DNA of 64,000 nucleotides, from contig NZ_SOBN01000003.1 in the NCBI RefSeq assembly GCF_004365705.1, forward strand, positions 372,001 to 436,000. Reading direction: 5' to 3'. The stretch comes from Streptomyces sp. 846.5. Its GTDB lineage: Bacteria; Actinomycetota; Actinomycetes; Streptomycetales; Streptomycetaceae. Positions within the stretch are counted from its first letter, which is position 1. Every line of letters starts with the position of its first letter. Below, piece by piece: positions 50,059 through 57,732 of the stretch. The translations under genes and the position numbers were made by a program. The notes below the pieces were generated by a model. It had not been told where the DNA came from. It was given only the letters and a program-made list of their open reading frames with translations, and made no database searches.

Positions 50059-50204
50059 GCAGCTTCACCCCCAGCGGGTCGGGGCCTACGCGGGCCGGCC
50101 ACCGGCGGGTTTGCGCAGGGGTACGGGGAGTCGCGCCCCGGAAAGTTGGAGCGTCCCAGATGCCGGACAGGGGGTTCGCCCACCGGGCGGACCTCTGGCA
50201 TAGT

Positions 50205-50345
50205 TCTCACCAGGTCACGAGTGACAGCGCGCGGTTTCTGACCGCTGCAGCCCCGGCTTGCTGTCCGGCAACCCTCCGTCCGTGGCGGGGTGCCTCCGGG
50301 TGACGACCAGGCCCTACGGCAACAATGCCGCAGGGCAAGCACGGA
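50205..50345 (+). promoter_or_regulatory. SAM-IV riboswitch
   Basis: The sequence follows the actinobacterial SAM-IV consensus: GGTCACGAGTGACAGC (50213-50228), then CCCCGGCTTGCTGTCCGGCA (50251-50270), ACCCTCC, GGCGGGGTGC (50284-50293) and CCGGGTGACGACCAGG (50296-50311), with a closing GGTC/GACC pair. A further hairpin (GCCCT/AGGGC, about 50311-50336) follows. It ends some 60 bases before GTG 50400. SAM-IV RNAs switch off sulfur-metabolism genes when S-adenosylmethionine is plentiful. Outer boundaries are approximate. Confidence 0.88.
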
Positions 50346-50399
50346 TCCCTTCTGATCAGGCCTTGTGCCAGGGGTCCACTGGATTCCCTGGAGGGGTCT

Positions 50400-51776
50400 G
50401 TGTCGGCGTACCCGAATGCTGCTTCTGTGCAGGTCTGTCAGCCGCTGGCGGTGCTCGGCCGCGATGTCGAGGTCCCGCTGGTCAGCGGCGCCAAGGTGAC
50501 CTATGCCGCGCTCGACTACGCCGCCAGCGCGCCGGCCCTGCAGCGGGTCTGGGACGACATCGCCGCCTACGCCCCCTACTACGGCAGCGTGCACCGCGGC
50601 GCGGGCTACCTCTCGCAGCTGTCGACCGACCTGTTCGAGCAGAGCCGGGCGACCGTCGCCGAGTTCCTGGACCTGCGCGAGGACGACCAGGTGGTGTTCA
50701 CCCGGGCCACCACCGACTCGCTGAACCTGCTGGCCGGCGTGCTGCCGGCCGGGACCAGGGTGTTCGCCTTCGAGACCGAGCACCACGCCTCACTGCTGCC
50801 CTGGCGCAAGCAGGACCTGACCGTCAGCTACCTGCGCGCCCCGCGCTCCCCGGAGGAGGCGGTGGCGGCGTTGGAGGAGGCGCTGGCGGGCAGTGCGGCC
50901 GGACCCAAGCTGGTGTGCGTGACCGGCGCGTCCAATGTCACCGGGGAGATCTGGCCGGTCCGGGAGCTGGCCGCGACCGCGCACCGGCACGGCGCGCGGA
51001 TCGTCCTGGACGCCGCCCAGCTCGCCCCGCACCACCCGGTCTCGGTCCGCGAACTGGACGTCGACTGGGTCGCCTTCTCCGGGCACAAGCTCTACGCGCC
51101 CTTCGGCGCCGGCGTGCTGGCCGGCCGCGGCGACTGGCTGGACGCGGCCGAGCCCTACCTGGCTGGTGGCGGCGCGAGCCGCACGGTGGCCAGGGAGACC
51201 GACGGCTCGGTGGCGGTGGAGTGGCACCGGGGCCCGCAGCGGCACGAGGCCGGCTCGCCCAATGTCATCGGCGCCTACGCCATCGCCTCCGCCTGCCGCG
51301 CCCTGGGGGAGGTCGGCTTCGACGCGCTGGTGGCCAGGGAGCAGTACCTGATCGACCGTCTGCGGACCGGGCTGGCCGGGATTCCGCAGGTCAGGGTGTT
51401 GACCCTGTTCGGCGAGGATCACCCGCGGGTGGGCGTCCTGTCCTTTGTCGTCAGGGACTGGAACAGCTCGCACTTCTCCGCTGCGCTCTCCGCGGAGTAC
51501 GGCATCGGGGTGCGCGACGGGCTCTTCTGCGCGCACCCGCTGGTGCGGACGCTGCTCGGCGGGGAGGCGGCTGCACCTTCCGAGTGCGGTGCGCCTGAAG
51601 CTTCGCTTCCGGGGGAGCGGAGCTTGAACGCCATCCGAGTGAGTTTTGGCGCGGGGACGCCGGATGAGCATGTGGACCGGTTTGTGGAGGCGGTGCGCGA
51701 GTTGGTCACCGACGGGCCGAAGTGGGCTTATCGCACTGAAGGTGGGCGGTGCGTGCCGGATACGCGGCGGGGCTGA
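50400..51776 (+). CDS. Class V aminotransferase (cysteine desulfurase-like), SAM-riboswitch controlled
   Basis: The 458-residue PLP enzyme has the cofactor Lys in WVAFSGHKLYAPFGAGVLAG, the Asp in ARIVLDAAQLAPHH and the His in FETEHHASLLPW. A Cys sits in RDGLFCAHPLVRTLL, where SufS-like desulfurases have theirs. GTG 50400 lies 5 bases after GGAGG; the longer frame would start inside the riboswitch 3' part. The upstream SAM-IV riboswitch ties it to sulfur amino acid metabolism, so a cysteine or homocysteine-related C-S enzyme is likely. The substrate is not proven. Confidence 0.88.
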   Translation: MSAYPNAASVQVCQPLAVLGRDVEVPLVSGAKVTYAALDYAASAPALQRVWDDIAAYAPYYGSVHRGAGYLSQLSTDLFEQSRATVAEFLDLREDDQVVFTRATTDSLNLLAGVLPAGTRVFAFETEHHASLLPWRKQDLTVSYLRAPRSPEEAVAALEEALAGSAAGPKLVCVTGASNVTGEIWPVRELAATAHRHGARIVLDAAQLAPHHPVSVRELDVDWVAFSGHKLYAPFGAGVLAGRGDWLDAAEPYLAGGGASRTVARETDGSVAVEWHRGPQRHEAGSPNVIGAYAIASACRALGEVGFDALVAREQYLIDRLRTGLAGIPQVRVLTLFGEDHPRVGVLSFVVRDWNSSHFSAALSAEYGIGVRDGLFCAHPLVRTLLGGEAAAPSECGAPEASLPGERSLNAIRVSFGAGTPDEHVDRFVEAVRELVTDGPKWAYRTEGGRCVPDTRRG

Positions 51777-56419: not shown

Positions 56420-56645
56420 GAAGTCGATCACCCATCCCGGGTGACAGCGGGGGTTTCCGCCGAGTCCGACCGCACGGCAGGCCGTCCCGAAGCCATCGGG
56501 GTGACCACAGGGGAGCGCCGTCAGTCTCGGAGCCGGGGAACCACGTTCCTCGGGGTGAATCGACGCCAGGCCGGTACGCCGGTGAAGCGTCGTAGGGCAC
56601 GTCTTCCAGCCCGAACCCGTCAGCTCACCCGGTAGGCGGACGTAG
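56420..56645 (+). promoter_or_regulatory. Cyclic di-AMP (ydaO/yuaA) riboswitch
   Basis: The conserved 3' half is clear: GCCGGGGAACC (56532-56542), CGGGGTGAAT (56551-56560), GTAGGG, then CCGAACCCGTCAGCTCACCC (56611-56630) and GGTAGGCGGA (56631-56640). The 5' half begins near the ATCCCGGGTGACAGCGGGGG block. Such RNAs turn off cell-wall hydrolase and osmolyte genes when c-di-AMP is high. It ends about 20 bases before GTG 56665. The 5' boundary is approximate. Confidence 0.9.
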
Positions 56646-56664
56646 GAAGAAGGAGCTCGCCTTC

Positions 56665-57732
56665 GTGGCGTCCCATCGTCGTCCCAAAGCCCCTGGTCGC
56701 GCTCGCATAACCGTGCTCACGGCTGCAGCGGCCACCACCGTCGCCCTCTCCGCGACCGCTGCCCAGTCGGCGCAGGCGGCCCCGACGCAGACCACTGCCC
56801 AACTCAAGGCGCAGATCGACAAGCTGAACACCGACGCCGACACGGCGGTTCAGCAGTACGACAAGGCGCAGTCCGACCAGCAGGCCCTGCAGAAGCAGGT
56901 CAGCACGCTGCAGGACCAGGTCGCCCGCCAGCAGGCCTCGGTCACCGCCAAGGCGACCGCCCTCGGCTCGGTCGCCAGCGCCCAGTACCGCAGTGGGTCG
57001 ATCGACCCCTCGGTCCAGCTGATGCTCGCCTCGGACCCGTCGACATACCTGAACCAGGCGTCGGCGCAGAGCCAGATCACCGCCAGTCAGTCGAACATGC
57101 TGGCCGAGTTGAAGGGCGAGCAGTCGACGCTCAACAACGAGAAAGCCCAGGCCGAGAGCAAGCTGAAGGCCCTCGACGCCACCAGCAAGCAGCTCGCCGC
57201 CTCCAAGGCCGCGGTGCAGCAGAAGCTCGCCGCCGCCCAGGCGAAGCTGGACTCCCTCACCTCCGCCCAGGCGGCCGCGCTCAAGGCCGCCAACGCCACT
57301 TCCGCGGCCAAGGCCGCCGCCTCCGTGAGCAGCTCCTCGTCCTCCTCCAGCAGTGCCTCGGGTTCGAGCTCGTCCAAGGCCGGCGACTCGGTGGAGGCGA
57401 CCGCCTACGCCGCCGCCCAGACCAAGCTCGGCGACGCGTACGTCTACGGCGCCACCGGTCCGAACACCTTCGACTGCTCCGGCCTGACCCAGTGGGCCTT
57501 CGCCCAGGCCGGGGTGGCCATCGGCCGCACCACCTACGACCAGATCAACGCCGGCACCGCGGTCAGCCGCGCCAACCTGCAGGTCGGCGACCTGGTCTTC
57601 TTCAACAACGACTCGCACGTCGCCATCTACGCCGGCAACAACATGGTGCTGCACGCCCCGCACACCGGCACCGTGGTGAAGTACGAGAGCATCGACACGA
57701 TCGGCTCCATCTACGCGATGCGCCACATCTGA
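56665..57732 (+). CDS. NlpC/P60 cell-wall endopeptidase 2, c-di-AMP controlled
   Basis: The 355-residue secreted hydrolase has the shared start ASHRRPKAPGRARITVLTAAA with signal peptide, a coiled coil (about 45-220), a Ser-rich linker of over twenty residues (SVSSSSSSSSSASGSSSSK) and the NlpC/P60 domain. Catalytic Cys is in NTFDCSGLTQWAFAQAG, His in NDSHVAIYAGN, third residue in VLHAPHTG. GTG 56665 lies 9 bases after AAGGAG. It follows a c-di-AMP riboswitch that would lower its expression when the nucleotide is abundant. Confidence 0.93.
   Translation: MASHRRPKAPGRARITVLTAAAATTVALSATAAQSAQAAPTQTTAQLKAQIDKLNTDADTAVQQYDKAQSDQQALQKQVSTLQDQVARQQASVTAKATALGSVASAQYRSGSIDPSVQLMLASDPSTYLNQASAQSQITASQSNMLAELKGEQSTLNNEKAQAESKLKALDATSKQLAASKAAVQQKLAAAQAKLDSLTSAQAAALKAANATSAAKAAASVSSSSSSSSSASGSSSSKAGDSVEATAYAAAQTKLGDAYVYGATGPNTFDCSGLTQWAFAQAGVAIGRTTYDQINAGTAVSRANLQVGDLVFFNNDSHVAIYAGNNMVLHAPHTGTVVKYESIDTIGSIYAMRHI

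Follow-up and report, generated by a model that had tools for sequence, protein, structure and literature searches.

The locus lies in a stretch of 64,000 nucleotides from Streptomyces sp. 846.5, here called the window, and consists of a SAM-IV riboswitch aptamer followed by the gene for a PLP enzyme (Table 1). We searched the window against all Rfam families with cmscan and obtained two matches, one of which was SAM-IV (RF00634), aligned over the full length of the model (positions 1-116) with an E value of 7e-15; the score of 89.9 bits compares with a gathering threshold of 38 bits. The earlier note on this DNA had claimed a SAM-IV riboswitch, and the covariance search proposed there now confirms it by a wide margin. 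The blocks conserved in the SAM-IV alignment are kept (GGUCA-GAGUG-CAGCG, CCGGCAACC, GGGUGA-GACC, and GGCAAGC-CGGAUC), and the PK-1 strand AGCCCCGG was recognized by its presence in the sequence alone. For PK-2, which joins the P3 loop with the 3' end in the part of the cryo-EM work cited here (PMC6890682), the window offers six standard pairs, UCCGUG with CACGGA, judged by complementarity only.

Table 1. Elements of the riboswitch-enzyme locus, observed and proposed (positions within the window)
Feature	Position	Strand	Basis
Possible -10 element, CATAGT	50199..50204	+	Read from sequence; 8 nt 5' of aptamer
SAM-IV riboswitch aptamer	50213..50347	+	Rfam RF00634, 89.9 bits
Extra hairpin inserted in P2 arm, GCGGU-UUCUG-ACCGC	50231..50245	+	20 non-model positions there in cmscan alignment
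PK-2, P3-loop strand UCCGUG	50279..50284	+	Complementary to 50340-50345, read from sequence
PK-2, 3' strand CACGGA	50340..50345	+	Complementary to 50279-50284, read from sequence
Strand A GGAUCCC, aptamer end, proposed alternative partner of strand B	50343..50349	+	Covariation in homologues; window A x B state
Predicted hairpin CCAGGG...CCCUGG, 3' arm overlapping the ribosome-binding site (RBS)	50368..50391	+	Folding with and without PK-2
Strand B GGGGUCC, inside 5' arm of the RBS hairpin (proposed)	50371..50377	+	Matched to A by eye
Shine-Dalgarno sequence GGAGGGG	50390..50396	+	Sequence and conservation, together with start codon
Gene for SufS-type (group II) PLP cysteine desulfurase-like enzyme, 458 aa, GTG start	50400..51776	+	Profiles, alignment, predicted structure

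In its full match far above threshold and its PK-2 complementarity, the window aptamer resembles the rest of the SAM-IV family; it differs in the extra hairpin of the P2 arm and in the proposal, set out below, that its PK-2 3' strand can also pair with the RBS hairpin. Similar insertions in the P2 arm occur in near relatives of the window. It could be argued that the element has lost its SAM response or senses another ligand, given that the clade with the extra hairpin scores lower (89.9 bits in the window, 86.4 in L015, and 81.9 in L082, with most relatives at 82-120), but the core blocks are kept and PK-2 is able to form all six pairs, and we regard such a change as very improbable. Upstream of the aptamer, CATAGT could possibly serve as a -10 element, which would place the transcript start at the aptamer. 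In some relatives, TAGAGT or TATAGT stands at roughly this position; a consensus scan found no promoter in the window leader, and the assignment is weak for that reason. Elsewhere in the window, cmscan placed a c-di-AMP (ydaO) riboswitch at 56506-56654 (+), with 74.8 bits, and the ORF 3' of it (56665-57732) looks secreted by eye.

GTG 50400 is the most likely start of the coding region, because GGAGGGG and a GTG or ATG start codon are kept at the same place in the five nearest relatives (L010-L014). An in-frame ATG at 50325 was considered and rejected, since it lies inside the aptamer and the conserved RBS and start are at 50390 and 50400; the end point of 51776 given previously is correct. 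In Pfam, the protein belongs with Aminotran_5 (PF00266, 251.5 bits). The best NCBIfam model was SufS (TIGR01979), whose cut-off of 475.1 bits the protein missed with 256.5, and the model for the cargo desulfurase of family 2A encapsulins (NF041166) gave 218.4 bits against a cut-off of 800. With both scores below the family cut-offs, we rejected the names SufS and encapsulin cargo for this enzyme.

Across 26 aligned sequences from many families, window included, H65, H128-H129, N179, D204, Q207, H229-K230, R372, C377, and R413 are invariant, and C377 is the desulfurase-like cysteine that had been pointed out before in a PLP enzyme. We take K230 to be the PLP lysine, C377 the catalytic cysteine, H65 and H128-H129 the histidines, and R372 and R413 the substrate arginines of a group II desulfurase, so that the full catalytic set of that group appears to be present. 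An AlphaFold2 model built from 24 alignment rows reached a pLDDT of 87.8 and a pTM of 0.88. When the predicted structure was used as a query, the 50 PDB matches listed were all group II cysteine desulfurases at 27-33% identity, comprising SufS and its synonyms, plant Nfs2, and one encapsulin cargo enzyme; for example, 9ddd matched with a TM score of 0.75-0.86. Judging by sequence and predicted structure, the gene encodes a divergent cysteine desulfurase-like enzyme of the SufS type (group II). Since the catalytic residues of group II are all present, cysteine is the first candidate substrate, which narrows what the earlier note had left as an unknown substrate.

The closest named protein relative in our scan, from Streptacidiphilus carbonis, is 94% identical, which places the window in or near that genus. 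The same genome encodes a SufS (614 bits) beside a SufU (160 bits), a family 2A encapsulin shell (504 bits) with an adjoining cargo desulfurase (854.7 bits; L039, on G000:C2), and a NifS-like protein below its family cut-off (368 of 531 bits). Because these Suf, encapsulin-linked, and NifS-like desulfurases are encoded separately, the window enzyme is an additional, SAM-IV-linked desulfurase-like enzyme. It shares the fold and catalytic residues of SufS and other group II desulfurases but reaches only about half the SufS cut-off score, is linked to SAM-IV, and stands apart from the genome's own SufS beside SufU. Likewise, it is of the group II desulfurase type, like the family 2A cargo enzyme, a true example of which is present in the genome; it differs from that enzyme in that its sequence is without the cargo domain, and the shell gene adjoins L039 instead.

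We then asked how widely the gene and the switch occur together. The gene, called at an E value of at most 1e-60, was found in 197 of 200 Streptomycetaceae genomes, and SAM-IV was found in 197 of 200, both being absent from the same three. This shared loss may be trivial, because many of these genomes have a single SAM-IV match. In a set of 296 genomes of the class, where the limit was an E value of at most 1e-70, the gene occurred in 110, of which 83 lie outside the Streptomycetaceae, and SAM-IV occurred in 188. We examined 195 upstream regions (30 from the 200-genome set, 80 from the scan of relatives, 83 from the class set, and two plasmid-collection records), and SAM-IV lay upstream of 189 of these homologues. 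Within the Streptomycetaceae, it was present in 110 of 110 (109 by sequence motif and one by Rfam), and both plasmid-collection records had it as well. Outside the family, Rfam detected it in the fetched upstream DNA of 77 of 83 homologues (12 of 18 plus 65 of 65); the six without a SAM-IV match upstream were four in family f36, one in f26, and one in f16. The SAM-IV/desulfurase pair is therefore conserved across many actinomycetes and near-universal in the Streptomycetaceae sampled.

Several loci in these searches deserve separate mention. At L104, in a record titled Microtetraspora glauca, the enzyme is 77% identical and a small ORF of the Streptomyces type is present; the name or assembly of this record is doubtful, and it is counted here among the Streptomycetaceae. 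At L178 (G229), a SAM-I element, and at L229 (G243), a second SAM-IV element, each lies on the opposite strand, divergent from and adjoining the enzyme gene. Three viral contigs (IMG/VR; L261-L263) encode relatives of the enzyme at 47-48% identity; the SAM-IV core motifs were looked for at L261 and L263, and none were found. In L262, the relative lies between homing-endonuclease-like and head-tail-adaptor-like genes, with a major head protein further on, and in L263 an RNA ligase is encoded 2 kb away.

The pairing of riboswitch and gene is not new, having already been annotated in two species. In the passages compared, S. lividans TK24 SLIV_26975 is listed as a cysteine desulfurase with a SAM-IV element (PMC8079986), and a premature transcript with a predicted SAM-IV is described for S. 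clavuligerus CRV15_21540 (PMC8269248). Their leaders have the same riboswitch class before a likewise-named gene, equated here by name and family rather than by sequence. Neither an expression platform nor a small ORF is mentioned for them in those passages, and the window is without the small ORF described below. The same account of TK24 lists SAM-I before "threonine biosynthesis" genes (PMC8079986), and in M. avium a SAM-IV is placed ahead of an O-acetylhomoserine sulfhydrylase gene in the section cited (PMC3774663). Our literature search returned no enzyme assay and no worked-out platform for the SAM-IV/desulfurase pair; in the parts of the sources it covered, no SAM-IV with an RBS platform was found, and Weinberg 2008 may describe one. 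What is proposed as new here is the expression platform and, in relatives, the small ORF.

A possible platform emerges from the end of the aptamer. Strand A can be drawn either into PK-2 or into a helix with strand B, in the 5' arm of the RBS hairpin. We computed the duplex energy of each A strand with its own downstream region and compared it with A strands dealt out among the sequences in 2000 permutations. Outside the Streptomycetaceae, own A gave -13.7, compared to -12.5 +/- 0.2 when dealt out (65 distinct sequences), and over all sequences it gave -14.2, compared to -12.8 +/- 0.1 (n = 174); relatedness among the sequences is ignored in these figures, and in neither set was any of the 2000 permutations as good as the real pairing. 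Own A surpassed the mean of the other A strands for 47 of the 65 sequences from outside the family and for 129 of all 174, leaving 18 and 45, respectively, for which it did not. Co-varying A/B pairs include GGACCCC/GGGGUCC, GGAUUCGAC/GUCGGGUCC, GGGUUCGC/GCGGACCC, and GGAUUCC/GGAGUCC. Counted in the same way, regardless of relatedness, A x B helices of 7 bp or more were found in 67/79, 18/30, and 47/67 sequences of three groups, versus 10, 7, and 12% after shuffling, and the RBS was more open under an imposed A x B helix than under an imposed PK-2 in 75 of 144 leaders and less open in 15. Among the direct Streptomycetaceae leaders alone (n = 18), 13 were more open and 5 less (p 0.1).

The case is weaker for the window itself. 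There, the openness of the RBS rises from 0.20 with PK-2 to 0.50 with A x B, but the A x B state pays a penalty of about 8 kcal/mol relative to the fold constrained to PK-2 (-22.2 against -30.1). Left unconstrained, the 3' part favors a 13-bp helix between 50340-50352 and 50390-50402, in which both the site and the start codon are buried. Given this lower stability and the 13-bp competitor, an ON state in the window would have to be kinetic. Taken together, the pairing data make the A x B platform likely for the family and leave it unproven for the window.

The reading that we favor, and consider reasonably probable, is that abundant SAM, acting through the SAM-IV riboswitch, stops translation of a SufS-type cysteine desulfurase paralogue. 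The aptamer recognized by the covariance model would bind SAM, as expected of its family. SAM would lock PK-2 through the aptamer 3' strand and leave the downstream hairpin to cover the RBS; without SAM, strand A would pair with the hairpin 5' arm B and open the site, a scheme that draws on covariation and folding in relatives and less firmly on the window. To judge from its conserved catalytic residues and fold, the enzyme would then take sulfur off cysteine as the Cys377 persulfide or as sulfide, leaving alanine. The regulation and the gene neighbourhoods suggest that this sulfur would pass to homocysteine and methionine synthesis, so that sulfur would be passed from cysteine into methionine only under SAM shortage. 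Roughly half of the Streptomycetaceae sampled, the window excepted, have a six-codon ORF between switch and gene, and there the switch would gate this ORF instead.

This small ORF, of the pattern M-x-K/Q-R-M-R-stop, lies behind SAM-IV at 79 of 110 Streptomycetaceae loci (L091 and L118, for example); the 31 counted as being without it include L148, which could not be assessed. The peptide is mostly MSKRMR (57 loci), followed by MNQRMR (8), MQKRMR (5), and others, and we found no mention of MSKRMR in the literature searched. All 79 ORFs use a CGA arginine codon and a TAG stop, although the pattern left both free. At position 2, the serine codons AGC, AGT, TCG, and TCT are all used, and the residue there varies too. 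The pattern was found in 94 of 200 Streptomycetaceae genomes, once in each, and a reversed control pattern gave zero matches. All 90 of these 94 matches that could be placed adjoin the switch or the gene: 77 lie 11-61 nt 3' of a listed SAM-IV, 60 of which (those for which the place of the gene was compared) are also 69-262 nt before the enzyme match, and thirteen more, placed by the gene alone, are 99-298 nt before it. Seven genomes of the same genus as the window carry the small ORF (G030, G037, G042, G050, G058, G066, and G074), and the window had no match to the pattern with up to two mismatches.

A stem begins at the G of the small-ORF stop codon. Of the 72 distinct sequences, 71 have a stem of 4 bp or more and 49 have one of 5 bp or more; the control, done for the 5-bp limit only, gave 9% (largest, 18%) in 300 shuffles. 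The arms co-vary, as in GGGCC/GGCCC, GGGCG/CGCCC, and GAGGC/GCCTC. The folding energy of the 34 bases 3' of the stop codon was not unusual compared with shuffles (mean z, -0.54); the evidence for the stop-codon hairpin is the fixed start of its stem.

Together with the premature transcript of S. clavuligerus, whose CRV15_21540 leader sequence was not compared, this stem suggests a relay in which the riboswitch acts on polymerase by way of the ribosome. The SAM-IV of Streptomyces and its relatives may act on the six-codon ORF and not on the gene directly, and the ribosome reading that ORF would block a terminator-like UAG hairpin, so that polymerase passes; we put this forward tentatively, as a possibility that falls a little short of an even chance. 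The metabolite signal would be handed from the RNA fold to the ribosome and then to polymerase, the codon set CGA-AUG-CGN-UAG may stall the ribosome, and the direct layout of the window would be a small-ORF-less variant within the same genus. Comparable arrangements are described for mycobacteria, where, in the sections cited, a B12 riboswitch (PMC11260477) and a Mg (Mbox) riboswitch (PMC12810186) gate small upstream ORFs. The Streptomyces relatives likewise have a riboswitch and then a conserved small ORF, with premature termination, and they differ in ligand and peptide and in having a downstream stem that begins at the stop codon.

The premature transcript reported for the same gene in S. 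clavuligerus (PMC8269248, as far as the cited part goes) is not predicted by purely translational control and weighs against the translational model. The platform could instead be mainly transcriptional, with SAM causing polymerase to stop in or after the leader, at a Rho-dependent site or a U-poor terminator, and with the RBS hairpin secondary. Consistent with such a stop, the read ratio of the CRV15_21540 premature unit is among the most extreme of 150 in that part of the source (PMC8269248), 21 of 22 leader elements in S. lividans, SAM-IV being among the 22, are highly transcribed in the 5' UTR according to the passage cited (PMC8079986), and nearly all distinct sequences with the small ORF have the stop-codon stem. 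Against it, no terminator-like site was found in the window leader, and the window hairpin overlaps the RBS. We judge a mainly transcriptional platform to be somewhat unlikely, noting that transcriptional and translational control act together in the mycobacterial Mbox system, as described in the cited section (PMC12810186).

That the enzyme acts in methionine/cysteine metabolism, as the earlier note had supposed, is supported by the SAM-IV elements upstream of nearly all homologues, by neighbouring genes, and by the other genes behind SAM-IV. The window's own genome (G000, 9.03 Mb, 5 contigs) has four further SAM-IV elements. A divergent pair serves genes for an amino-acid ABC transporter and NtaA/DmoA-type (FMN) monooxygenases; another site precedes a GNAT gene (recognized by eye, with no NCBIfam match), and another precedes a monooxygenase gene (by eye) adjoining a divergent O-acetylhomoserine sulfhydrylase gene. 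A SAM-IV-linked monooxygenase-like gene at L007:5415-6538 (-), on G000:C2, has a frameshifted look, with two overlapping frames, the one carrying on the other, that may reflect a real break or an assembly error. The window gene itself follows a gene that we read as trpD, and no other sulfur gene was recognized beside it in the window. Sulfur-related neighbours occur in 5 of 16 neighbourhoods from other families: an alkanesulfonate-monooxygenase-like gene with the same kind of GNAT, again by eye (L249), an NtaA/DmoA-type monooxygenase (L254), a Cys/Met PLP enzyme about 3 kb away (L256), a GTPase read as CysN (L257), and TauE (L260). In the other 11, including L247, which gave no gene calls, no sulfur gene was recognized. 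The SAM-IV set and these neighbours fit sulfur salvage and the movement of sulfur to methionine, and the role that we propose is SAM-repressed release of sulfur from cysteine toward methionine.

The same gene set would also suit a C-S lyase or desulfinase of organosulfur salvage acting on cystine, cysteine sulfinate, or S-substituted cysteine, and not a cysteine desulfurase. FMN monooxygenases, ABC transporters, and GNAT (by eye) lie near the enzyme or in the same SAM-IV set, the similarity to SufS is low, and the weak matches include EgtE, a PLP C-S lyase. The persulfide-transfer residues, the cysteine included, are nevertheless invariant, and, to our knowledge, simple C-S lyases of this fold do not require a catalytic cysteine, which we count against this assignment; we think it unlikely.

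Finally, the enzyme may be a dedicated sulfur donor for MetO, the carrier of the Streptomyces MetM/MetO homocysteine route, with both being SAM-repressed. MetM is reported to be a homocysteine synthase with a SAM riboswitch upstream in S. albulus (Hasebe 2024, as cited in the relevant passage of PMC12172450). A metM-metO-like pair lies behind SAM-I in all six genomes looked at, the window's own included, and, in the class set, MetM occurs in 91 of 110 genomes with the enzyme, versus 103 of 186 without it. Under the E-value limits used, however, 19 of the 110 enzyme genomes are without MetM and 103 MetM genomes are without the enzyme. In G008, G012, and G112, the three Streptomycetaceae in which searches found neither enzyme nor SAM-IV, the SAM-I before metM-metO is kept. 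The loss of metM/metO expected in these three was thus not seen, and, with the 19 class-wide exceptions, a dedicated donor is weakened to the point of seeming quite unlikely. The enzyme is thus at most one of several sulfur donors.

The riboswitch-enzyme pair is real, is of an ordinary kind, and had been annotated in Streptomyces before; bench tests would be best spent on the platform and the small ORF. If true, the SAM-controlled release of sulfur proposed here would show how actinomycetes time the movement of sulfur from cysteine to methionine. SAM-IV would gain a testable expression platform, and SAM would become a further ligand whose riboswitch works by way of a conserved small ORF.
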